A stretch of DNA of 64,000 bases from Megaustenia siamemsis (Eukaryota; Mollusca; Gastropoda; Stylommatophora; Ariophantidae): assembly GCA_032433765.1 (NCBI GenBank), contig JAVIAB010000059.1:56009103-56073102 (forward strand), in the 5' to 3' direction. This document shows, in pieces, positions 8,304-61,677 of the stretch. The stretch's first letter is position 1. The number at the start of each line of letters is the position of its first letter. The position numbers and the translations under genes were made by a program. The notes under the pieces were generated by a model, which was not told the DNA's origin, searched no databases, and worked only from the letters and a program-made list of their open reading frames with translations.

Positions 8304-11300
8304 CTGAAGATAACAATGTGAGAGCATGAACGGTTATTGACGATCATCACTTCAGGTGTATCGATATAATAAGCTAATTATATGTTTACACCGCTCCATG
8401 TACTTCACTTCCCGTGTGTTACCGGTGCCTTTTTAGGAGGGAAGTAAAGAATAGTGACACTGTGATCTTCCAAGCATGTCGTAAGAGGCGACTATGGAGG
8501 TTGATCGATGGCACAACAAGCTGTCATTGTAAAAAGTATTATTATGGAAACAGAGATCATAGATTTTAGAAGCAGTGATTTCTACAATATGTGCCATTTT
8601 GGCACGCAAGGTTTCTGTTTTTGAGATTGTGGTTCTGCCCTATGTACCGTCTTCGGCTCGAAAGGTCAATTGATAGATATAGATAGATATATGTACTTCA
8701 CTGTTGGTGACAAACTGTGTCTACATGTGCAGGTTCATTCTCAAGGGACTACGTTTTTGTTCCTGTTATTTCTTTATTTATTTTCTAGTTACCTCATCTC
8801 ACGGAGAAATATAATGTAAGTCACTATCCAAGATTTCCTGAACACAAAACAAAACTTCATGCACATGTCAGTGTGGGCGGTATACACGTATTCGTGTAGT
8901 TACACGTGTCTCAGACTTTTCACGGGTAGATAATAACGGCAAGGTTAATCCACGTAAATGGTGCAAGAAAATAATGTATCACAGGTAAATGGAAAGTCAG
9001 TGTACGGACGTAATCGTTGAAATAAAGATGCCAGTTCAACAGAAACATTTTTTTTTCACGTTGCGAAGTTTGAATCTACAACAGCCAGCAATAGCTAACG
9101 TTTAGTGATGTTACCTGTCGGAACTACTATATTACTTGTATCTCAACATTTTAATGCTCATCGGAACATATTTGACCAGGCATTAAAGATCGTTATCACA
9201 AACTTGATCCACTGCTGATCGCCACAATTGTGAAGTCCACCAGTTATCTTCCATTTATAAGGCCATTTCACTTGATTCCTGCATCCTCCAAAATGTTCTA
9301 TGCAGGCAAATTAGACGTCATCAATTCCTTCCTAGATGTGGGAAGGGCACAGGACTTCGACAACCACGAGTACACGTCACTCCTTCGGATGATAGAGATG
9401 GGAGTTAAGATAGGTACTGGAGTCGTCAGTCGCTGGACACTGCGGGACTGGCTGAGGAGGGGATCTAAGCACATTTGAACATGTTCGGAGAGCTATGATA
9501 ATGATCCGAAAATAACCTCAATAACACAATAATTTTAACAAACTAAACAAGTCTTTGGAGATCGAAAATACTTAGCAAGCACGAGGGAATGAGATTATCT
9601 TTTGCCTGATATCCAAGCTAATATATGATGAGATAGAGATGCACTCACGGTCTAGCGAATAGACATTTGTACTGAATTAAATTATAATAAATGAAATAAG
9701 AGTGCACATTAGCTAGATACGGAGAAGATGCTGGAGATACATCGATCATGTGCTCACAGTACACAAATAAAAGACTTCATATTAGGCTTTATGTGGGCAC
9801 TGGGCGTCAAAATAAAGCAAGGAATGCCAAAAGAAACTCAAGTGTAATTAAAAGAGAGGTTTCAAATATGGCGTAAAAAACACAAGGAAAAATCTAGATT
9901 TTATATTATATTATATTATATTATATTATATTATATTATATTATATTATATTATATTATTTATTATATTATATTATATTATATTATATTATATTATATTA
10001 CATTATATTACATTACATTATATTATATTATATTATATTATATTATATTATATTATATTATATTATATTATATTATATTATATTATATTATATTATATTA
10101 TATTATATTATATTATATTATATTATATTATATTATATTATATTATATTATATTATATTATATTATATTATATTATATTATATTATATTATATTATATTA
10201 TATTATATTATATTATTATTTGTAACATTGTTATTTGCTACAAAACAAAAATAAAAAAATGCGCATCAAGGAACCTTTCAATAATAATTTGACAGCAATG
10301 TATCTATATTTGTTGTTGTTGTTGCGTTCGCCAGCTTTCAACTCTGACGAAGTCCCTAGAGACTAGGAACTGAATTTTGCGTGTTAATCTATTTTTCCCT
10401 GGCAGTCGTGTGCACAGAGGTCCCTTGCCGCACAGGCAGATAACTCCGACTTCGGAGGTACTCATGTTTTTTCTATCGATGAGTAAGTGACCTTTCAAGC
10501 CGGGCCTCGCTGCTGAGACCAGGGGTGGTTGTCGCAGAGAGAAATCATAAATATAAATCCCAACTGGTGTAGCCGAGATTTGAACCCACAACCTCTCTGT
10601 CCCGAGGCCAGCGTCTTGTCTCGAGACCAACCAGTCCCCCGTGGACTTGGAATATGAGGAAACTGCAACAAGGAACACTTTGTAATTATATAGAGACGGA
10701 AATTGTACAAAGAAAAAGTAACTCACGTTTAGATTAAGAATTGGGTAGTATGTTGATGAAGGCACTATGGTCGGGACTTTTGTTAATCCTCTGTTCTCAC
10801 AGTTGATGGTCGTGTCAGTACAAGTACATTCCTGAAAACAAAACGCTACATATAAATATATATATTCTATTGAACTATGTATTAGTTTGTCTGATGTCAT
10901 CTTCATTAATTTGGTCATGTTCTGTACTCTGGTAGGTAATTCTGTGTATCAACCTGTTTATATGCGGAATATACCTTTAGGCAGTCTATCACTTTATAAA
11001 AATTCATTATAACACACTTCTATTTATTCTTTTCTATTCAATTCTTTTCTGATATGTTCTTCTCTGTTATATTATATTATGTTATGTTACGATAATCATC
11101 ACATCATTCCCAACACATCCATGGGTGCTCCGATCTTCTGCTCAAAAAGTTTAACAGCGAGTAACTGTGCCCGTTCGGTGTTGGTTGAGTGTCCTATCTA
11201 TTCGTCCAGAAAATCGATCTGTTCTGACATTATTATTGACCCACCAGTGCAATCAGTTTAAATAGCTATTCCTTTTTCACTTCCTTCAAAGTCATTCAAT

Positions 11301-12447
11301 CTCTTCACATCTCTGAGGTTGTTCATGATGTTTCTGTAACATTGATCTGTGCATGTGCTGATCTCACCTAAACTGTCAATCAGTTTGTTCCTCAATTGCC
11401 ATCAACATTAGACTCGTATTTCTCCAGCTCTTTTTAAACATTCTTCATTAGGTATTTTTGAGTCCATAGAATTCGTAACATTTTTTCTGATAAACCATCC
11501 CAACTGTCTCCAATATTCTCTGTGTTGCCTTGCTTATCGTCCCATGATTCACATCCATGTAGTAGAACAGATTTTATGTAGCACTTCAAGACACGTCTTC
11601 TAACATTATTTGGCAATGATTTATTACATTGGATGTTTTTTCAGTCGATGGAATTCTGTCTTGACTTGCCCTATTCTGCCTATAATTTCTGTCTTGACTT
11701 GCCCTATTCTGCCTATGATTTCTTTCTTTACCTGTCCTATTCTGCCTATAATTTCTTTCTTTACCTGTCCTATTCTGCCTATAATTTCTTTCTGTACCTG
11801 TCCTATTCTACCTATAATTTCTTTCTTTACCTGTCCTATTCTGCCTATAATTTATGTCTTTACCTGTCCTATTCTGCCTATAATTTCGTTCTTTACCTGT
11901 CCTATTCTGCCTATATATAATTTATGTCTTTACCTGTCCTATTCTGCCTATAATTTCTTTCTTTACCTGTCCTAATCTGCCTATAATGTATGTCTTTACC
12001 TGTCCTATTCTGCCTATAATTTCTTTCTTTACCTCTAATATACTGTCTATAATTTATTTCTTTACCTGTCCTATTCTGCCTATAATTTCTTTCTTTGCCT
12101 GTCCTATTCTGCATATAAATTCTTTCTTTACCTGTCCTATTCTGCCTATAATTTCTTACTTTACCTGTCCTATTTCCTATTCTGCCTATAATTTCTTTCA
12201 TTACCTGTCCTATTCTGCCTATAATTTATTTCTTTACATGTCCTATTTTGCCTATAAATTCTTTCATTACCTGTCCTATTCTGCCTATAAATTCTTTCTT
12301 TACCTGTCCTATTCTGCCTCTAATTTCTGTTAAGTATGTCCTTGATATCAACCACAAATGTCTTACCTGATAAACACAAACATCGCCGACAGCCAACGCA
12401 ATTAGAAACGTGCACAACAAAGACAGGTGTTGGACGTTCTTAGCCAT
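7029..12447 (-). CDS. LRR-1: secreted leucine-rich-repeat protein (3 coding exons)
   Basis: Predicted 486-aa secreted LRR protein joined from exon 1 (12367-12447), exon 2 (10727-10831) and exon 3 (7029-8303), all phase 0. Residues 1-22 are a hydrophobic signal peptide. CVYQ at the end of exon 1 joins ECTC at the start of exon 2, giving an LRRNT-like Cx4CxCx6C cluster. Exon 3 holds about a dozen irregular LRRs, then a C-terminal cap with LVCTC, GNCG and a final C. There is no transmembrane segment or GPI-like tail, so it is probably extracellular. The same exon lengths occur in LRR-2 and LRR-3. I cannot give a function. The layout resembles invertebrate proteins often auto-named oplophorus-luciferin 2-monooxygenase non-catalytic subunit-like, but that is recall, not a search. 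The exon model is well supported by paralog comparison; function is unknown. Confidence 0.85.
8450..8692 (+). mobile_element. Probable SINE sharing its 3' tail with the LINE at 56030-56408
   Basis: Ends GCCCTATGTACCG, GGCTCGAAAGGTCAATTGAT, then AGATA repeats. The last about 45 bp match the 3' end of the LINE fragment near 56361-56408. The 5' boundary is uncertain. Located in LRR-1 intron 2. Confidence 0.5.
8693..9897. other. Intron 2 of LRR-1 with an orphan coding-like segment
   Basis: No recognised gene. A plus-strand frame is open from about 9171 to a TGA ending at 9478 (about 102 codons: DRYHKLDPLLIATIV..., LDVINSFLDVGRAQDF..., TLRDWLRRGSKHI), non-repetitive and protein-like. Its end (from 9419) is shared with the minus strand at about 58020-58122. 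Confidence 0.4.
9898..10214. repeat. (TTATA)n pentanucleotide array, about 63 copies
   Basis: Nearly pure; a few interruptions (TTACA near 10000-10018 and a short slip at 9958-9962). Confidence 0.97.
10320..10640 (-). mobile_element. SINE-C copy
   Basis: tRNA-like head on the minus strand (GACTGGTTGGTCTCGAGAC, then GTGGGTTCAAATCTCGGC as B box). Body ATTTCTCTCTGCGACAACC and CACTTACTCATCGATAGA. Other copies are at 54478-55220 (+, interrupted) and 57225-57545 (-). Confidence 0.8.
10637..10690. repeat. Fragment of the foldback-type repeat F
   Basis: GGACTTGGAATATGAGGAAA then CTGCAACAAGGAACACTT, as in both arms at 13862-14385 and at 42440-42490. Confidence 0.6.
10727..10831 (-). CDS. LRR-1 exon 2 (LRRNT cysteines, 35 codons)
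   Basis: The acceptor is TTTTCAG|GAATGT and the donor AAAC|GTGAGT. The peptide starts ECTCTDTTINCENRG and ends PILNLN. Its 105-nt length and the E-C-x-C/INCE-x-R pattern are identical in LRR-2 and LRR-3. A SINE-C copy lies immediately downstream of the donor. Confidence 0.87.
10832..11404. other. LRR-1 intron 1, unassigned part
   Basis: Unique AT-rich sequence; nothing recognised. The 11060-11280 stretch has moderate GC and a 60-codon open frame without a recognisable motif. Confidence 0.4.
11405..11616 (-). mobile_element. Non-LTR RT fragment
   Basis: VRRRVLKCYIKSVLLHGCES, then EKMLRILWTQKYLMKN: the post-core RT segment in decayed form. Confidence 0.65.
11655..12323. repeat. 33-bp minisatellite, about 20 copies (LRR-1 intron 1)
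   Basis: Unit TTTCTTTCTTTACCTGTCCT, ATTCTGCCTATAA; pyrimidine-rich on the plus strand. Ends about 45 bp from the LRR-1 exon 1 donor. Confidence 0.95.
12367..12447 (-). CDS. LRR-1 exon 1 (signal peptide)
   Basis: 27 codons starting MAKNVQHLSLLCTFLIALAV and ending GDVCVYQ, then donor CAG|GTAAGA. Cleavage is likely around ALAVG/D. An AG acceptor lies just 5' of the ATG (TTCCAG|AAAATG), as in LRR-2 and LRR-3, which implies an upstream untranslated exon. Confidence 0.86.
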
Positions 12448-27328: not shown

Positions 27329-30300
27329 CTGAAGATAGCAATTGGACAACAATAAACATACTTTATAACCATTATGTTACCATGATGAATACGTCAAAAA
27401 CAATAAGTTAATATTAGAACACCTGTATATTAGTTGCTGCCATGTAGCAGTGAAACAGGAGATACATTATAGATCGTTTCCTAACAAGGCTGCGGAAGCC
27501 ACCAAATATATTGACAACCAGCATGAAATGAAATAGAAATGTGAATGGAAAGGACTGCAAACTACTTTACAAGGAATTAAATATGACAACCCAGATCTGA
27601 GAGTAGTAATCCTGTAACGGGTTTCATGATATTATAGAAATGAACTGATAAAAAGAAGGCGGTTCTATAGCAACCATGAAGCCAATAGATTGCTCTAAGA
27701 TTATATCAATCGGTTCTTGAACAAGCAATCAAGCGGAATACATCTCAACGTATCACGATTGCTTGCGATGAATCATGATATTGAAAGACGAAGGACAGCG
27801 GTTGCGTTCACTTTCGGTGCGGCTACGCCTTATGTCTTTTGGCGTGTACTTTATGTCTTTGGTGTGTCTTTTATTGTTCAGATCCTTCAATAAGATTAGT
27901 TTTAATTCGGATGATTCCACTGGCACGGGTGGTTGAGCAATTATGGATTTTAATTCGTTTGCAGTGATACGGGGGCCTTCGACTAACCATAACTCCTTAA
28001 CGTGTGTGAATACATGAACAAATAACCGCTGCTGGAGTAGAATAGTTCTCTAGAACAATTATTATGAATTAGTGCTATCAATCAACCAATAATCGTCAAA
28101 TAAGTATCAAACGAACATGGTACAACCAAGATATGGTACAACCAAGATATGGTACAACCAAGATATGGTACAACCAAGATATGGCACAACCAAGATATGG
28201 TACAACCAAGATATGGTACAACCAAGATATGGTACAACCAAGATATGGTACAACCAAGGTATGGTACAGCCAAGATATGGTACAACCAAGATATAGTACA
28301 GCCAAGATATGGTACAACCAAGATATGGTACAATCAAGATATGGTACAATCAAGATATGGTATACTCAAAGATATGGTACAACCAAGATTTGTTACAACC
28401 AAGATATGGTACACTCAAAGATATGGTACAACCAAGATATGGTACAACCAAGATATAGTACAGCCAAGATATGGTACAGCCAAGATATGGTACAGCCAAG
28501 ATATTGTACAACCAAGATATGGTACAACCAAGATATGGTACAACCAAGATATGGTACAACCAAGATATGGTACAGCCAAGATAAGGTACAACAAAGATAT
28601 GGTACAACCAAGATATGGTACAGCCAAGATATGGTACAACCAAGATATGATACAACCAAGATATGGTACAACCAAGATATGGTACAGCCAAGATATGGTA
28701 CAAGAAATGGTACAGCCAAGATATGGTACAACCAAGATATGGTACAACCAAGATATGGTACAACCAAGATATGGTACAGCCAAGATATGGTACAACCAAG
28801 ATATGGTACAACCAAGATATGGTACAACCAAGATATGGTACAGCCAAGATATGGTACAACCAAGATATGGTACAACCAAGATATGGTACAACCAAGATAT
28901 GGTACAACCAAGATATGGTACAGCCAAGATAAGGTACAACCAAGATATGGTACAGCCAAGATATGGTACAACCAAGATATGGTACAACCAAGATATGGTA
29001 CAGCCAAGATATGGTACAACCAAGATATGGTACAGCCAAGATATGGTACAGCCAAGATATGGTACAACCAAGATATGGTACAGCCAAGATATGGTACAGC
29101 CAAGATATGGTACAGCCAAGATATGGTACAACCGAGATATGGTACAACCAAGATATGGTACAACCAAGATATGGTACAGCCAAGATATGGTACAGCCAAG
29201 ATATGGTACAACCAAGATATGGTACAGCCAAGATATGGTACAACCAAGATATGGTACAACCAAGATATGGTACAACCAAGATATGGTACAACCAAGATAT
29301 GGTACAGCCAAGATAAGGTACAACAAAGATATGGTACAACCAAGATATGGTACAACCAAGATATGGTACAACCAAGATATGGTACAACCAAGATATGGTA
29401 CAGCCAAGATATGGTACAACCAAGATATGGTACAGCCAAGATATGGTACAACCAAGATATGGTACAACCAAGATATGGTACAACCAAGATATGGTACAAC
29501 CAAGATATGGTACAACCAAGATATGGTACAACCAAGATATAGTACAACCAAGATATGGTACAACCAAGATATGGTACAGCCAAGATAAGGTACAACAAAG
29601 ATATGGTACAACCAAGATATGGTACAACCAAGATATGGTACAACCAAGATATGGTACAACCGTGATATGGTACAACCAAGGATTGATTCAGTTAACACCG
29701 TCCACTTGTAGCAAAGCTAAGAGTACAACCTCTCTGTCACCATTTCGATCCTTATCTACCACATTCTTGAGCTTTTATTTCTGTTTCTTTGAAGAAGTGG
29801 CCATCTTGATGGATATATTTTTTTTCTTCAAAACCAGAGTAGTTGCTGCCATAGGGAACATAAGGTCAACAAGTAAGGAAAGATAAAATGTAGAAGTAAA
29901 AGTACCCCCGCCACGCCAAGTGGCGGCGTATAGGGAATATGGTGTTAGTGACCATAAATTTTACAGACCTTCGGCACATGATTTTTGGGGTAATGTGGTC
30001 GGTATTACGCCCGTGCAACTCTACTTTCCCAGAAAAAAATCCCGTACCCATTAAAGGTACCCATTGGACCGGAAACCGTCGGTTGTGATCGAACCCTACC
30101 TCTTGTCCTTTGTAGTTCAGTTCACTAACCACTGAGCTATCGCGGCTCCTAGATGGTAATGTTAGAAATTAATGCATCTGTTTTGATTGTAACTATAACT
30201 AATCTCTATATTTATTCATCTATACATACATTTGATTAGTTCAGACGCAGTTCAGCATTCAAAATGTTGCATAACATAACATGCATTACAACAAACATTA

Positions 30301-33070
30301 CAACAGACATTACAACAAACATTACAACAAACATTTCAACAAACATTACAACAAACATTACAACAAACATTACAACAAACATTACAACAAACATTACAAC
30401 AAATAACTATTACACCGAGATCACTAGCACATTCTCACAAAATATCAGCTACAACGCAAGTTTCAATTAACAAGGAGAGGAAACTAAAAGTTTAGTATAA
30501 TCAATGAATAAATTACGTCTAAACTAAGAGTTAAATAATAGCTTACGTCTAGACTGAGAGTTAAATAATAGCTTACGTCTAGACTGAGAGTTAAATAATA
30601 GCTTACGTCTAGACTGAGAGTTAAATAATAGCTTACGTCTATACTGAGAGTTAAATAATAGCTTACGTCTAGACTGAGAGTTAAATAATAGCTTACGTCT
30701 ATACTGAGAGTTAAATAATAGCTTACGTCTAAATTGAGAGTTAAATAATAACTTGCGTCTAGACTTGGAGTTAAATAATAAATTACGTCCAGATTGAGAG
30801 TTAAATAATAACTTACGTCTAGACTGAGAGTTAAATAATAAATTACAACTAGATTGAGAGTTAAATAATAACTTAAGTCTAAACTAAGAGTTAAATAATA
30901 GCTTACGTCTAGACTGAGAGTTAAATAATAGCTTACGTCTATACTGAGAGTTAAATATTAGCTTACGTCTAAATTGAGAGTTAAATAATAACTTACGTCT
31001 AGACTTGGAGTTAAATAATAAATTACGTCCAGATTGAGAGTTAAACAATAACTTACGTCTATACTGAGAGTTAAATAATAAATTACATCTAGATTGAGAG
31101 TTAAATAATAACTTACGTCTAGACTGAGCGTTAAATAATAAATTACATCTAGATTGAGAGTTAAATAATAACTTACGTCTAAACTAAGAGTTAAATAATA
31201 ACTTAAGTCTAAACTAAGAGTTAAATAATAGCTTACATCTAAATTGAGAGTTAAATAATAACTTACGTCTAGACTGGGAGTTAAATAATAAATTACGTCC
31301 AGATTGAGAGTTAAATAATAACTTACGTCTAGGCTGAGAGTTAAATAATAACTTGTTAAAGATGTTATAGCTGGCATCTGTGTTAACTGTCTGTTCTCGC
31401 AATTGATGGTTGATTCGATACAGGAACATTCCTGTAAGACAAAGAAAAAAGAAAATCAGCCTCTGATTTATCCACTTACAAATTCAATCATTCATCTATC
31501 AATCCATTCACACGTTCAATCATGTGTCTGTTCTTATATTCATGCATCCATAAATGCACTCTCACCCATCCATCCACTAATCAGTCTATATATGCACCTA
31601 TCTACAGACATACCTATCTACCTATCATCCTACCTACCTACCTACCTATCAAACTATTTACCAAGTTACCTTCCAACTTTCTGATTGTCTGTCGTTTTTC
31701 TATATGAATGTCTTTTAATCCAGTTTGCCCGGTACTTCATCTCTATATTTATCCAACTATCTATACATCTGATTAGTTCTTTTCAATAATTCCCCTATTC
31801 TTACGTTTGCATGATCATTAGTTCATCTAATTTTCTGTATCTTAGTTCTCCTTGTCGGTTTTTATTTTTCTAAAGTTGGATATTGGTCTATCCTCCTATC
31901 GGTCAATGTTTTCGTAACTTTGCCTATTGACCTATGAATCTTATGTCTATGATCATTGTGTCTGTGACTTCTATTACTTGCTATCCGTTAACATTATCTC
32001 TTTGAACCCGGGCCGACGTTCTTGTCTATTGGGAAGTAATGTCTACACTTATCATCGTGTCCATGAATGATACTTTATGTTACGCAAAAACCATCTGGCA
32101 ATTCTTTCATATTTGGACACGTTTTAATGAAGAAATAAATTTATTCAGAAGAATAATATTTGCTGATACTAGACAGATTACAATTGTAAAACAGATACTT
32201 CTTTTTCACCTTCTCTAAACAAATAATGAAGGATTGAACAATCATCTCCGCAATCCGCCCTTAACAGGGAGTTAAATGAGTGTAGATTCGTTGGGTTGCA
32301 GTTTGCTGCAAGGCTGAAATATTTGCAGCTGAGTGGCAGTGTTCCCTAGCGTTTGGCTTTTCGTGGCAAGGCGCTGTGCCACTGGGTACGGGTTCGATCC
32401 TGCCTTGGTGCATATTTTTTTCTGTTGTTGTTTATTTGTCATTTTTTCCGAGTGCTGTAAACATACCTCTTCCTCTGAATTGGATTCACTGAAATATTTG
32501 CGCTTTTCGGCCCAAACAGCCGACTTCAGTACGTTATTATTAAGGACTGATTTGCCTTCCTTCTGCAATCCCTACTCGCTTGGCCAAACTTCATAGTATG
32601 TGTCCAGGAGCACCACTGGGAGGTGGATCAGAGTCGTGATTAGTTTTTGTGTGCAGCCCTCCTGAATCTTACAGTCAGCTTTTGGTAGGCTAACTTCACT
32701 TATCTTGGTTGCTAGATGGGCGGAAATAGGATAACTCTAACCAAACTAGCAAAATAACTGCAGGTTTAGTACAATGATATTACACCTATTTCATCCCTAT
32801 ATCTGTCTATCCATTTCTTATTTATTTGCCAATTTCACCTTTCAAACCTTTAGTTTTCATAAATATATCAATTCTGTGTTATTTAGTTTTATTTTATTGT
32901 CTTAGCTGTTATCTCCCGTCTTTGAAAGATGTTTTCTAACACTAATCTTGTCAAGAGACTTATTTGTAACGTCAAACATGAAACATTACCTTATAGACAC
33001 AGTCTTCGGCAAGAGTCAGTGAGATTACAGAAGTGCACAGCATCATCAAGTCTTTGACTAACTTGAACAT
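26057..33070 (-). CDS. LRR-2: secreted leucine-rich-repeat protein (3 coding exons)
   Basis: Predicted 485-aa paralog of LRR-1 built from exon 1 (32990-33070), exon 2 (31327-31431) and exon 3 (26057-27328), all phase 0. It has a signal peptide (MFKLVKDLMMLCTSVISLTL, then AEDCVYK), an LRRNT-like cysteine cluster, the irregular LRR array, and a cap with LVCTC and GTCG. No membrane anchor is visible. The exon 2/exon 3 join gives LSLD + MNDITDIP, a canonical LRR segment. The gene looks intact. Intron 2 is unusual: it begins with a 30-bp minisatellite made from the end of exon 2 plus its donor, then carries a 16-bp satellite and a SINE. Expected location is extracellular; ligand and role are not readable from sequence. 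Confidence 0.86.
27329..28115. other. LRR-2 intron 2, acceptor-side part
   Basis: Mostly unassigned. 27795-27990 is a repeat-F piece matching 42600-42810 (TTCGGTGC, TTATGTCTK TTGGCGTGT, AATTCGGATGATTCCACTGG, GGGGCCTTCG). Confidence 0.55.
28116..29688. repeat. 16-bp satellite, about 98 copies (LRR-2 intron 2)
   Basis: Unit ACCAAGATATGGTACA with a common AGCC variant. Because 16 is not a multiple of three and the unit lacks stops, all six frames stay open for over 400 codons; none is a gene. Confidence 0.97.
29899..30151 (-). mobile_element. SINE-A copy (LRR-2 intron 2)
   Basis: Full family structure on the minus strand from GAGCCGCGATAGCTCAGTGG to the GCCACTTGGCGTGGCGGGGG end. The TSD is not clear. 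Confidence 0.85.
30284..30412. repeat. 12-bp minisatellite, about 11 copies
   Basis: Unit ACATTACAACAA. Confidence 0.92.
30508..31350 (-). repeat. 30-bp minisatellite made of LRR-2 exon 2 end plus splice donor, about 28 copies
   Basis: On the minus strand each unit reads AGTTATTATTTAACTCTCAG then YCTAGACGTA, which is the last nine codons of exon 2 followed by the donor. The unit is ten codons (SYYLTLSLDV-like) in the exon 2 frame, open for about 12 units to a stop at 30958. Most units keep GAC|GTAAGT, GTAAGC or GTAATT. Spliced at a distal donor, the message would gain multiples of ten residues without changing phase. Confidence 0.92.
31327..31431 (-). CDS. LRR-2 exon 2 (35 codons) abutting an exon-derived minisatellite
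   Basis: The acceptor is TTACAG|GAATGT. The peptide starts ECSCIESTINCENRQ and ends YYLTLSLD. The first donor is GAC|GTAAGT at 31327/31326. The reading frame stays open through the following 30-bp repeats to 30958 because each unit is ten codons. Confidence 0.85.
31432..32330. other. LRR-2 intron 1, unassigned
   Basis: Short degenerate ATCTAYCTAYC and TACCTACC runs near 31600-31660; otherwise nothing recognised. Confidence 0.4.
32331..32690 (+). mobile_element. SINE-D/E copy (LRR-2 intron 1)
   Basis: tRNA-like head with CTAGCGTTTGGCTT and GGGTTCGATCCTGCCTTGG. The body (TATTTGCGCTTTTCGGCCCA, CTACTCGCTTGGCC) also appears in SINE-E at 4203-4570 and 38751-39146, linking the two. Confidence 0.72.
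32990..33070 (-). CDS. LRR-2 exon 1 (signal peptide)
   Basis: 27 codons, ATG at 33070, ending EDCVYK, donor AAG|GTAATG. An acceptor TTTCAG|GAAAATG directly precedes the start, as in LRR-3. Confidence 0.85.
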
Positions 33071-39199: not shown

Positions 39200-39766
39200 A
39201 CCGCCGCGATAGCTCAGTGGTTACTGAACTGGGGAGCCGCGATAGCTCAGTGGTTACTGAACTGGGGAGCCGCGATAGCTCAGTGGTTACTGAACTGGGG
39301 AGCCGCGATAGCTCAGTGGTTACTGAACTGGGGAGCCGCGATAGCTCAGTGGTTACTGAACTGGGGAGCCGCGATAGCTCAGTGGTTACTGAACTGGGGA
39401 GCCGCGATAGCTCAGTGGTTACTGAACTGGGGAGCCGCGATAGCTCAGTGGTTACTGAACTGGGGAGCCGCGATAGCTCAGTGGTTACTGAACTGGGGAG
39501 CCGCGATAGCTCAGTGGTTACTGAACTGGATTACAAGAACAAGAGGCGGGTTCGATCCAGGTTCACCCATCCTTTAAAATTTAATTTAAATTTAGAAAAG
39601 AAACATCCGGATTTTTATCTGGGAAAGTAAAGCGGCACGAGCGTAATGCTGATCACATTGCTTCAAAAAATCATGTGCCGAAGGTCTATAAAAAGTATGC
39701 TCACTAACACTATAATTCCTAGACGCCACTTGGCGTGATGGGGCTCTTCACTTTACTTTTTATTGG
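39200..39766 (+). mobile_element. SINE-A copy with ten tandem tRNA-like heads
   Basis: Ten 33-bp units (GCCGCGATAGCTCAGTGGTT, ACTGAACTGGGGA), apparently identical, precede one normal body (AGAGGCGGGTTCGATCCAGG, GGAAAGTAAAGCGGCACGAG, GCCACTTGGCGTGATGGG). Each unit contains the A box TAGCTCAGTGG. Short flanking match TACAAGT (39193-39199, 39767-39773) is a probable TSD. Confidence 0.9.
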
Positions 39767-43217: not shown

Positions 43218-44490
43218 TTACGATGAACAGTTTGGGCTTAGTTTGGAGAAGAAATCATAAATATTCACGAGGCCGCAGTTTCCTAAAACGCAGTCGCTGG
43301 TCAGTGATAGAATCATATGTTCTAGGCTCTTCTACTGGCAAGTACAAACGAGAGTTGTCGTTTCAGTCAAATCCAATGTCTTCAGTCTAGAGAGCGAGCT
43401 GAGCGCTAGGGGCAGACGTGTTAGACGAGTGCCTTTAAGGTTCAATTAAATCAGTGAACCCAGATTTGTGAAGGCCTGTGTAGAAATTCGGACAAGAGGG
43501 TTATCATTTAGGCTGAGAATTGAGATTTGACAATTTATAGGAAAACTGGTGTCTGTTAATTATGTTATGAGGTTATACCCTAGATCGGCCGTGGTTGCTG
43601 AAAGCGGAATATCTGATGCGCGAATCTGTGTGATAGAGTTCGATGATAGAGTTAGTTCATCTACTTAATGTGAGGTTGCCAGTACGCGAGGAATGGATGG
43701 GAGGAAATTGTTGGTAAAATAGATGTATCTACAATTGGCTGGGATAGACCCAGAGCAAGGGTCTGATATTCTGTTATCGGAGAAATCCAGAGTTGAGAGG
43801 AGCGTCAGAAATGTAATATTTGGGATAGCCGTTAGCCGGTTCGAACTTATGCCAAGATAGCCAAGAGAATCTCGGTAAGGATACACGGAGCTACCTAGCT
43901 GGTTGGCGTCTGATATCATGTTGTAGTTAAGTGTCAATGACTCTAGCTGACACGCCTGCGGTAGGTAGGTCACGTCAATAATCTGGTTTTTTCTTCAAAT
44001 ACAAATTCCGTAGAGCCGTCAACATGGAAAACGCTTTAGGCACGGTAGTTAGACCGTTGTTGGTTAATGACAAGCTTATTAATGTGTTGGTTACGTTGTC
44101 CAGACCGTAGTCAGGGACTGATGATATGAAGCCGCCATTAATGGTTAGATCAGTGAGACGGGAAAAATATTGAAGCCAGCTCGGCCATGACGTCATGCCT
44201 ACGTCTTCAAGGCCAAGCGTTTTAAGGGTCTGACCTATATTTCTCATGACGTTATCGTTCCAGTCCTCAATGTTAGCGTCTCGCATGTCAAATATTTCTA
44301 GAACTTTCAGACTGCCTAATGCGTCAGGGATTCTTGTGAATACAACCGAGGAGAAGGTGAGGGTTTTTAACGTGTAGGCGTAGTCATTAAAAGCTGCTTC
44401 TGCGATTGTCGTGACTGGGTTATCTGTCAAGTATATTTCTGTCATGTTTAGAGGCAATCCCCCAGCTGGTATCTCTGTGATTTCGTTGCC
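43218..44490 (-). pseudogene. LRR-3 exon 3, frameshifted with four stops
   Basis: Opens after TCTTCAG with GGCAACGAAATCACAG (GNEITEIPAGG), which joins LSLD of exon 2 into a good LRR. Readable as one frame from 44490 to about 43993 and another from there to 43668; beyond it the LRRs and the cap (LVCTC then stop, GNCG, FFSKLSPNC) remain recognisable around the stops. Confidence 0.88.
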
Positions 44491-47560: not shown

Positions 47561-47665
47561 GTCAAGACTGAGAGTTGAATAATTATTTCTTGAGATTGTC
47601 ACAACTGGTAATTGTGTTAATTGTCTGCTTTCACAGTTGATGGACGACTCCATACAATAACATTC
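47561..47665 (-). CDS. LRR-3 exon 2 (intact exon of the pseudogene)
   Basis: Acceptor CTACAG|GAATGT, 35 codons, donor GAC|GTACGT. It matches the exon 2 length and cysteine spacing of LRR-1 and LRR-2 exactly. Confidence 0.83.
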
Positions 47666-59920: not shown

Positions 59921-60399
59921 TAGACATTAATTTATTTTTTTCAAAAACTTATTGTTCATTTGCATTGATCTTTTGAAGTTAGGTTTAGAATACTAATGTC
60001 GCTATAAAAATATTTTTTTATCAAAGAAATGTGATCCAGTTTCAAAGATGCCTTATTTAACCTATATTAAAAAAAAGTTAATGGATATTATAAACACCGG
60101 CGGGATTATGTAGATGCTTACATCTCACAGCTGATTCTTTAACATATAGGCATGACCTTCACGGCTGAATGCGCACCGTCCTAAAATAGTTATGTTTCCA
60201 CTATAAATTTTTATAAAGAAATGTTACATATGAAATTTCCCGTTTAGCACAAAATGACATTTTAGCCGAAACCGGAAATTATGTGACGTCAAAATCACGG
60301 CCGTAGACTCGAGTTCGAGTCATAATTCAGAGGCAAATCTCAATATTTACAGAAAGGAGGCGGCACTATCCATATTATCTTCTGCAAGTCTATGTGAGA

Positions 60400-61677
60400 A
60401 TGAATATAAAGGCAAAATATTTTACTGAGCATAACATTGCTATAAAGATTTATCAATACTTCTGCAGAGAGCGTAAAAAGGGACATCTTTATTGTTCTTT
60501 ATCAAACCCTGAGAAGAGAACAATGCATATTTTAGGTTTGTGTAAACGTTCATTTGATCGAATAGTTAAAGGAAGCGGATATTTATTGCCAACAAATGCA
60601 AGAAAGCAAGGAAGGAAAGAAACGTTAGACAGTTTTGATAAGGACCTAGTAAAAAGAGAAATCTGTCGAATGTTTGATATAAACGAAGAAGTGACACTTA
60701 GAAAGTTGAAGCTTTGGCTGAAAACTAACAACGACATTGAAATATCAAAAACTTCATTATGGAAAATATTAAGAAGTGCAGGCTTCACCTTTAGAAAGTA
60801 TGCTGGAGGAAAAAACATTATTTGTGAGAAGCCACATCTAGTAGCTCTCAGAAGCAAGTATTTACGTGAAGTGAAGGAAATGCGCGAAAATGATTATGAT
60901 ATTGTTTATTTAGATGAAACTTGGATCAACGCTCATGATACAAATGAAAAGGAATGGCAGTTAGCAGATGGAAGTATTAAAAGATCAGTACCAAGCAGTA
61001 AAGGGCAACGTTTGATAGTTGCACATGCAGGTAGCAGACATAATGGGTTGTTGCAGAATGCTCATCTCGTTTTCATTTCAAAATCCATAGACAATAGAGA
61101 CTACCACTACGAAATGAATGGGCACATATTTAAAGACTGGATCGAGAAAAGTATCCTTCCAATATTAGATCGACCTTCTTGTCTGATAATGGACAATGCT
61201 TCATACCATAACGTAGTTAACGTAGAAGATAGAATCCCAACATCATCAAGTACAAAAGATGCAATCAAAACGTGGCTCATAAAAGAACACATACAAGTTA
61301 ACGACAGCTACTTGAAACCCGAATTGCTTAGCCTTGTAAAACAGACACAACGTACAAAGATATTTAAAATAGACAAGTTAATTCAAGAACATGGCCATAG
61401 ATGTTTGAGACTACCTCCATATCATGCACACTTAAATCCTATAGAACTAGTTTGGGCAAAAGTTAAAGGACACGTAGCATATACAAATAAAACGTTCAAA
61501 TTATGCGATGTTGAGACACTTACAAATCAGGCTCTATCAAGTATAAATAAAGACTACTGGGTAAAATGTGAGGATCATGTGTTACGACAAGAAGAGGAAT
61601 ATTGGAAAAAGGATAGTTTGTTGTTTGTTCAGCCGAAAGCAGTAATCGACCTATTTGACTCGTCTGATTCTGAATGA
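60400..61677 (+). CDS. DDE transposase of the Sailor-like transposon
   Basis: 425-aa transposase; I start at ATG 60400 because the frame's earlier first codon at 60394 is GTG. Residues about 40-130 carry two helix-turn-helix-like stretches for end binding. The catalytic core is of the DDE_3 (IS630/Tc1/mariner) type: D172 in VYLDETWIN, D265 in LIMDNASYHN and E349 in LPPYHAHLNPIELVW. I count 83 residues between D265 and E349, far more than the 34 of Tc1/mariner and next to the 82 that define the Sailor group. The insert carries KxDKLIQEHGH before the PPYH motif. The C-terminus is acidic (DSSDSE). No frameshift or stop; codon use is AT-rich like the element itself. Confidence 0.9.
   Translation: MNIKAKYFTEHNIAIKIYQYFCRERKKGHLYCSLSNPEKRTMHILGLCKRSFDRIVKGSGYLLPTNARKQGRKETLDSFDKDLVKREICRMFDINEEVTLRKLKLWLKTNNDIEISKTSLWKILRSAGFTFRKYAGGKNIICEKPHLVALRSKYLREVKEMRENDYDIVYLDETWINAHDTNEKEWQLADGSIKRSVPSSKGQRLIVAHAGSRHNGLLQNAHLVFISKSIDNRDYHYEMNGHIFKDWIEKSILPILDRPSCLIMDNASYHNVVNVEDRIPTSSSTKDAIKTWLIKEHIQVNDSYLKPELLSLVKQTQRTKIFKIDKLIQEHGHRCLRLPPYHAHLNPIELVWAKVKGHVAYTNKTFKLCDVETLTNQALSSINKDYWVKCEDHVLRQEEEYWKKDSLLFVQPKAVIDLFDSSDSE

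Follow-up and report, generated by a model that had tools for sequence, protein, structure and literature searches.

We analyzed a 64,000-nucleotide window (the whole stretch of DNA considered here) of the Megaustenia siamemsis genome (GCA_032433765.1; contig JAVIAB010000059.1, below C59, positions 56,009,103 to 56,073,102), in which the gene LRR-2, encoding a leucine-rich repeat (LRR) protein on the minus strand, carries a tandem array of 30-bp units that begins within the end of exon 2 and runs across the splice donor into intron 2. The initial annotation had described this donor-bearing array at the exon 2/intron 2 boundary, and it is confirmed as first described. The parts of the gene are as follows.

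32990..33070, minus strand: LRR-2 exon 1, encoding the signal peptide and ending in CVYK|GTAATG; one of two pattern-scan matches in the interval
31327..31431, minus strand: LRR-2 exon 2, encoding the cysteine cap plus the opening strand of the first LRR; copy 0 of the array is formed by its final 28 nt (31354-31327)
31325..31326, minus strand: canonical intron 2 donor, GAC|GTAAGT, at a position kept in 34 of 34 exon 2s, with the junction seen in the homolog P0001
26057..27328, minus strand: LRR-2 exon 3, an open frame with the LRRs (Pfam LRR_8, E 5e-31), the C-terminal cap, and the stop

Joined together, the three exons give 485 aa with no internal stop, and judged from its sequence the gene looks intact. 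The exon 1 candidate listed was preferred for its agreement with homologs, which have CxYK|EC. The strand of the first LRR lies at the end of exon 2 (YLTLSLD) and continues at the start of exon 3 with MNDITDIP; the homolog P0001 reads SYYDLVNFDMNDITDIPAGSLP straight through the exon 2/3 junction, which fixes the canonical junction as D|MNDITD. A comparison of exon 3 between LRR-2 and LRR-4 gave a dN of 0.23 against a dS of 1.64 (near saturation), and coding change in this exon has therefore been held down.

With its LRR domain of family-wide similarity, its cysteine cap, and shared exon boundaries, LRR-2 belongs to a gastropod family of secreted-type LRR proteins, whose full length is mostly ~480-505 aa and which share the cysteine cap, the LRRs, and a C-terminal VCTC motif. 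When the 2.59-Gb assembly was searched with exon 3, 99 of 1171 candidates were scored and 99 of 99 matched, giving a family of at least 99 members. The scored matches form a very large tandem cluster around the window, 97 of the 99 lying on C59 at 55.9-62.3 Mb; in one paralog (C59:59913341-59914582), the open frame that contains the match extends over 1250 aa, in comparison with ~430-500 for most others. Of the 7990 proteins scored in a database search, 233 reached E ≤0.001. Among the 120 listed, those close relatives that are named were gastropod proteins with about 42-49% identity (Candidula unifasciata and the stylommatophoran snail Bradybaena similaris), the named full-length matches having roughly 42-48% over exon 3, and the best match was an unnamed JGI protein with 55% identity. 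A literature search found no paper on LRR expansion in land snails.

The array itself and its landmarks are listed next, with coordinates from Tandem Repeats Finder (TRF) and from a table of units.

30507..31354, minus strand: 30-bp array, comprising an exonic copy, 27 intronic units, and a partial last copy
30961..31326, minus strand: stretch of intronic units that stays open in the frame of exon 2, with further GAC|GTAAGT at 31266, 31176, 31116, 31056, and 30996
30958..30960, minus strand: TAA in unit 13, the only in-frame stop of the array
31347..31354, minus strand: AAGTTATT in the exon, proposed as the 5′ half of the direct repeat that seeded the array; missing there in 8 other exon ends
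30507..30516, minus strand: incomplete final copy GTAATTTATT, proposed to be what remains of the native start of the intron, which in the array-free paralog L047 is GTAAGTTATT

TRF gave a period of 30, 28.3 copies, 88% matches, 0% indels, and a score of 1262; several other arrays within the window likewise have 0% indels, so that an indel-free constant period is ordinary here. Read unit by unit, the array consists of one exonic copy (31356-31327, TSYYLTLSLD) and 27 full VSYYLTLSLD-like intronic units (31326-30517), which repeat the last 28 nt of exon 2 together with the GT donor. The exonic and intronic copies stand in a single register and span the boundary, as in the minisatellites known as mirages. 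In the frame of exon 2 the unit reads GTA AGT TAT TAT TTA ACT CTC AGT CTA GAC. Exon 2 terminates with ACAAGTTATTATTTAACTCTCAGCCTAGAC at 31327 and intron 2 opens with GTAAGTTATT at 31326, while unique sequence follows the partial last copy (30516-30507). The annotation had also stated that the exon frame is kept and stays open for about 12 units, and the sole stop, in unit 13, agrees with this. Over the 27 units, frame 0 contains that 1 stop and the remaining two sense frames contain 77 and 4.

A GT is kept at 25 of the 28 donor positions of the array (the real donor included), matching the many signal-bearing units of mirages; it is lost at 31206 (TT), 30876 (TT), and 30756 (GC). Most units were said to have GAC|GT, and 21 of 28 do, but 7 of the 28 positions read GTAATT (four after GAC, two after GAT, and one after GTT), which pairs weakly with U1 (-1.4 to -1.7 kcal/mol) and does not occur natively at any exon 2 donor seen in the LRR family. 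For these energies we used what we take to be the U1 5′ end, and for donor scoring what we take to be the human donor frequencies. GAC|GTAAGT is found at seven positions (31326, 31266, 31176, 31116, 31056, 30996, and 30816), each with a pairing energy of -5.7 kcal/mol, and six of these seven sites, including the real donor, fall within the open part of the array. GAC|GTAAGC at ten positions (-4.6 kcal/mol) is the native exon 2 donor of the paralog L052, and GAT|GTAAGC at one (-4.3 kcal/mol) that of L069. The positions with family-native exon 2 donor 9-mers number 18 of 28, the real one included, a donor likeness shared with the minisatellite of human IFI6. Such a supply of U1 sites could in principle make splicing more or less efficient, or change how often exon 2 is included, according to the number of units, with no array sequence entering the mRNA; however, the donors are not conserved within the array and 33 of 34 exon 2s have no array, and we regard this effect as improbable.

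Paralogs provided the controls. Upstream stretches of 6-8 kb were read for 21 of them (L039-L059), and a scan for the cysteine pattern placed exon 2 in 14, with none in the stretch for L040, L041, L045, L046, L048, L051, and L053. Two further exon 2s came from the exon 3 loci L034 and L038 (rows L026, L030, and L031 were dropped as repeats), and the addition of LRR-2 and its neighbors LRR-1 and LRR-3 brought the first census to 19.

10727..10831, minus strand: LRR-1 exon 2, comparator with no array
47561..47665, minus strand: LRR-3 exon 2, comparator with no array

In LRR-2, the last 27 nucleotides of the exon plus 6 of the intron match 27 downstream places at ≥70% (best 0.94), whereas the other 18 exon 2s had no downstream copies of their exon end at this threshold over 0.8-2 kb, their best values being 0.52-0.61. 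A genome search with the exon 2 protein gave 22 places, and short stretches were read at 15 new ones, including L045, L046, and L048; the 15 further exon 2s had no array in the ~345 nt that follow, with top self-match values of 0.42-0.55 at the homologous donor. The array is therefore present in 1 of 34 exon 2s, LRR-2 only, in what is a sample of the family selected by similarity to LRR-2. LRR-1 and LRR-3 have the homologous exon end and no array, as noted at the outset, and the same is true of 31 further exon 2s. Wherever the acceptor is clear, exon 2 is 105 or 108 nt long, and a GT is found at the homologous codon boundary, in phase 0, in 34 of 34.

This regularity bears on the idea that the array is coding in the ordinary sense, an extended exon 2 being the main form and the first donor not the usual one. 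The frame is indeed open for 12 units past that donor, but with the donor at the same codon boundary in every exon 2 examined, canonical spacing in 18 homologs (below), and the first donor an intact GAC|GTAAGT, we give this idea almost no credence.

Two side observations concern the comparators. Exon 3 of LRR-3 (43218-44490, minus strand) matches LRR-2 in two pieces that lie in different frames, with four stops in the second, and LRR-3 looks like a pseudogene. The paralog L044 (C59:56284309-56290309) has a 39-bp array of 2.5 copies from 4 nt into its intron 2, the unit of which is not an exon copy.

The array-free paralogs also suggest how the array may have been seeded. The intron start of L047 is exactly GTAAGTTATT, and those of LRR-1 and L049 match it at 8 of 10 positions; among nine exon ends compared, that of LRR-2 alone carries AAGTTATT at the corresponding point, 30 bp upstream. 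We infer an ancestral intron 2 that started with GTAAGTTATT behind an exon end in which AAGTTATT lay 30 bp further upstream. The 30 bp would have been duplicated when these 8-bp direct repeats underwent slippage or unequal exchange, and later rounds would have produced the 27 units. The sequences fit a first duplication of this kind, with one repeat in the exon and the other in the donor region. With a unit of 30 bp that starts in the final codons of a phase-0 exon, every copy inherits a donor and an open frame; such inheritance would come from copying alone and would not require selection.

The 27 intronic units of the array are of 17 types, and the similarity between units is raised at lags of 8 (46/2000 shuffles) and 2 (67/2000), a weak signal since these are the best two of 14 lags. 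A 159-nt segment from unit 10 recurs eight units on with ≤2 mismatches, which hints at multi-unit duplication within the array. Tandem arrays are often missized in assemblies, and the unit number, or a part of the array, might be such an artifact. The 17 types in nontrivial order and the 78.6-Mb contig make this very improbable, although the number of units could still be off.

Arrays with a period of ≥10 and ≥3 copies, 25 separate ones after merging, make up 30% of the 64 kb of the window, and array birth is therefore common here; the same class accounts for 17.9% of the 192 kb examined. Among the 10 exons placed in the window, an array touches LRR-2 exon 2 only. A genome-wide DNA search with the array found 19 places, itself at 100% and 18 others at 63-73%. 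A dispersed repeat was considered and rejected: TRF on six of the seven other loci read (L002-L005, L007, and L008) gave other periods and units, and a search with exon 2 found no match in L002-L008 at E 1, so that the 18 other places look like chance similarity between AT-rich arrays.

We found no support for selection on either the frame or the donors. Distinct changes from the unit consensus numbered 16, of which 8 were nonsynonymous and 1 a stop, where ~0.5 stops are expected; the opportunity fractions, with transitions weighted 4:1, were 0.31 synonymous, 0.66 nonsynonymous, and 0.03 stop, and the lean toward synonymous changes was only slight. Since the other two sense frames hold 77 and 4 stops, frame 0 is best seen as open by descent. 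Mean diversity was 0.123 at donor positions 1-6 and 0.062 both at positions 7-27 and at 28-30, the donor hexamer thus being about twice as variable as the rest of the unit, the opposite of what selection for donors predicts.

Known proteins gave no sign of array-encoded residues. Among the 120 homologs listed, 20 contained both landmarks of a simple cap-to-LRR pattern. Eighteen of them, all members of the LRR-2 family, had no insert at the exon 2/3 junction, unlike an array-extended form, the CxC of the cap being separated from the first LRR by 31-33 residues; in the distant relatives P0102 and P0108, the values were 87 and 79, the second pattern having fallen further on. A protein search with the array frame returned 2 candidates and a search with a two-unit isoform 137, none of which scored (in the latter at E 10); as the isoform search recovered no known family member either, it is a weak test and its emptiness says little.

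Repeats of this type are already in print, and the LRR-2 array is not new in kind. In amphioxus, tandem repeats that cross an exon-intron boundary are known as mirages; PMC3087553 describes them for two globin genes, with citations of Adh3 and further loci, and PMC3902484 adds PGBD5 to the comparison and cites TnC. Like the LRR-2 array, the repeats of Adh3, BflGb6, BflGb9, and TnC, with PGBD5 compared, are described there as boundary-spanning, minisatellite-like, and carrying splice signals, and regular splicing is reported as undisturbed (PMC3087553, PMC3902484). According to these accounts, BflGb9 has the 3′ boundary of its exon 2 duplicated, as in LRR-2, and the units of Adh3 are 10-72 bp, bracketing the 30 bp found here. 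The snail array differs in phylum and gene, and in having 27 intronic units, a whole-codon unit, and one frame over 12 of them; length and somatic instability and normal splicing are reported for amphioxus, whereas the LRR-2 array is known from the sequence of one assembly. In titles and the starts of abstracts, we recognized no mollusc case of a boundary-spanning minisatellite, though one may still be in print. The human gene IFI6 (6-16) has a minisatellite with a 12-bp unit. Two of its downstream units are used as donors, giving three mRNAs, as reported in PMC4526556. As in LRR-2, intronic units after an exon act as, or resemble, further donors of that exon; unit sequence and gene are unrelated, however, and donor use is reported for IFI6 in that source but read from sequence for LRR-2.

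The reading we prefer, with a probability of roughly 0.6, is that of a mirage-type minisatellite, seeded at the boundary by slippage between AAGTTATT copies and removed with the intron mainly from the first donor. Splicing would run mainly from 31326 to exon 3 (27328) and yield the 485-aa protein, the array being lost along with intron 2. If one of the five other identical donors of the open part were used now and then, the protein would gain 20, 50, 70, 90, or 110 residues, and leaky use of this kind is possible. Our results agree with the annotation that splicing at a later donor would keep phase 0, in-frame donors being present down to 30966. They differ in the location of the additional residues, which would fall inside the first LRR as the gene now encodes it and not before it. 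Because every unit finishes with a strand for which exon 3 supplies the continuation (LTLSLD, LTLNLD, LTPSLD, or LTLSID, with one LTLNLV), such a splice would rebuild the first LRR, and the 10n extra residues would then sit after the cysteine cap and before the rebuilt repeat.

Several points weigh against this preferred reading. Five more donors in the frame have exactly the sequence of the first, and one more, GAC|GTAAGC, occurs as a native donor in L052. As the computed U1 pairing of the five is equal to that of the first donor, the latter has no sequence advantage, and the use of later donors is a real question. Between equal donors, intron-proximal sites can win. Synonymous changes among the units were 7 of 16 where 5 are expected, a slight lean that runs weakly counter to neutrality. 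The exonic AAGTTATT could have arisen by conversion from the array instead of preceding it; against a recent conversion, codon 8 is AGC in the exon copy but AGT or AAT in each intronic unit. Finally, IFI6 supplies a precedent in which extra donors are used (PMC4526556).

A rival reading is a used ladder of donors as in IFI6, where several array donors would be spliced appreciably, isoforms would differ by n × 10 residues, and copy number would alter the set. The six identical GAC|GTAAGT in one open frame, with equal pairing and phase kept, would each allow the first LRR to be rebuilt. On the other hand, the 18 measured homologs have no insert, no extended protein was found in what were low-sensitivity searches, diversity is higher at the donor positions than in the remainder of the unit, and the stop closes the second half of the array. 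We consider such a ladder possible but rather unlikely, and the initial suggestion that donor choice varies finds no support in homologs, protein searches, or constraint on the frame or donor hexamer. Less likely again is an expandable ladder, with isoforms of +0, 20, 50, 70, 90, and 110 residues from the six donors and a set that differs between individuals and perhaps cells. If later donors are used, the array would diversify the isoforms of a large LRR family, and an expandable ladder, if true, would add allelic or somatic diversity to its at least 99 members. In any case, the locus is a natural test of spliceosome choice, with identical donors in near-identical 30-bp surroundings, where 33 related exons show which donor is ancestral. 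The occurrence of boundary-spanning minisatellites is extended from amphioxus to a gastropod genome, and the array-free paralogs, serving as outgroups, permit a concrete proposal for how the array was seeded.

A second donor-rich array lies in intron 1 of LRR-1 (11654-12328, minus strand), with 33-bp units mostly bearing the donor consensus CAG|GTAAAG. A pattern listing gave 17 donor-like sites in this intron including the real donor, 15 of them CAG|GTAA, and the frame of exon 1 stays open to 12228, including two CAG|GTAA sites (12303 and 12270). We rejected it as a second case of the same kind: the array starts ~38 nt past the exon with no visible exon copy, and its phases drift (5, 6, 6).

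Three further features of the window deserve mention. A 16-bp array of 98 copies at 28117-29680 has open frames of >400 codons in several frames on both strands and is a trap for gene prediction. Ten near-perfect head-to-tail 33-bp copies at 39203-39529 resemble the start of a tRNA-like element also found near 30150 (minus strand). A 456-aa open frame at 60307-61677 (plus strand) contains a DDE_3 endonuclease domain (E 6.5e-15) and represents a transposase-like gene.

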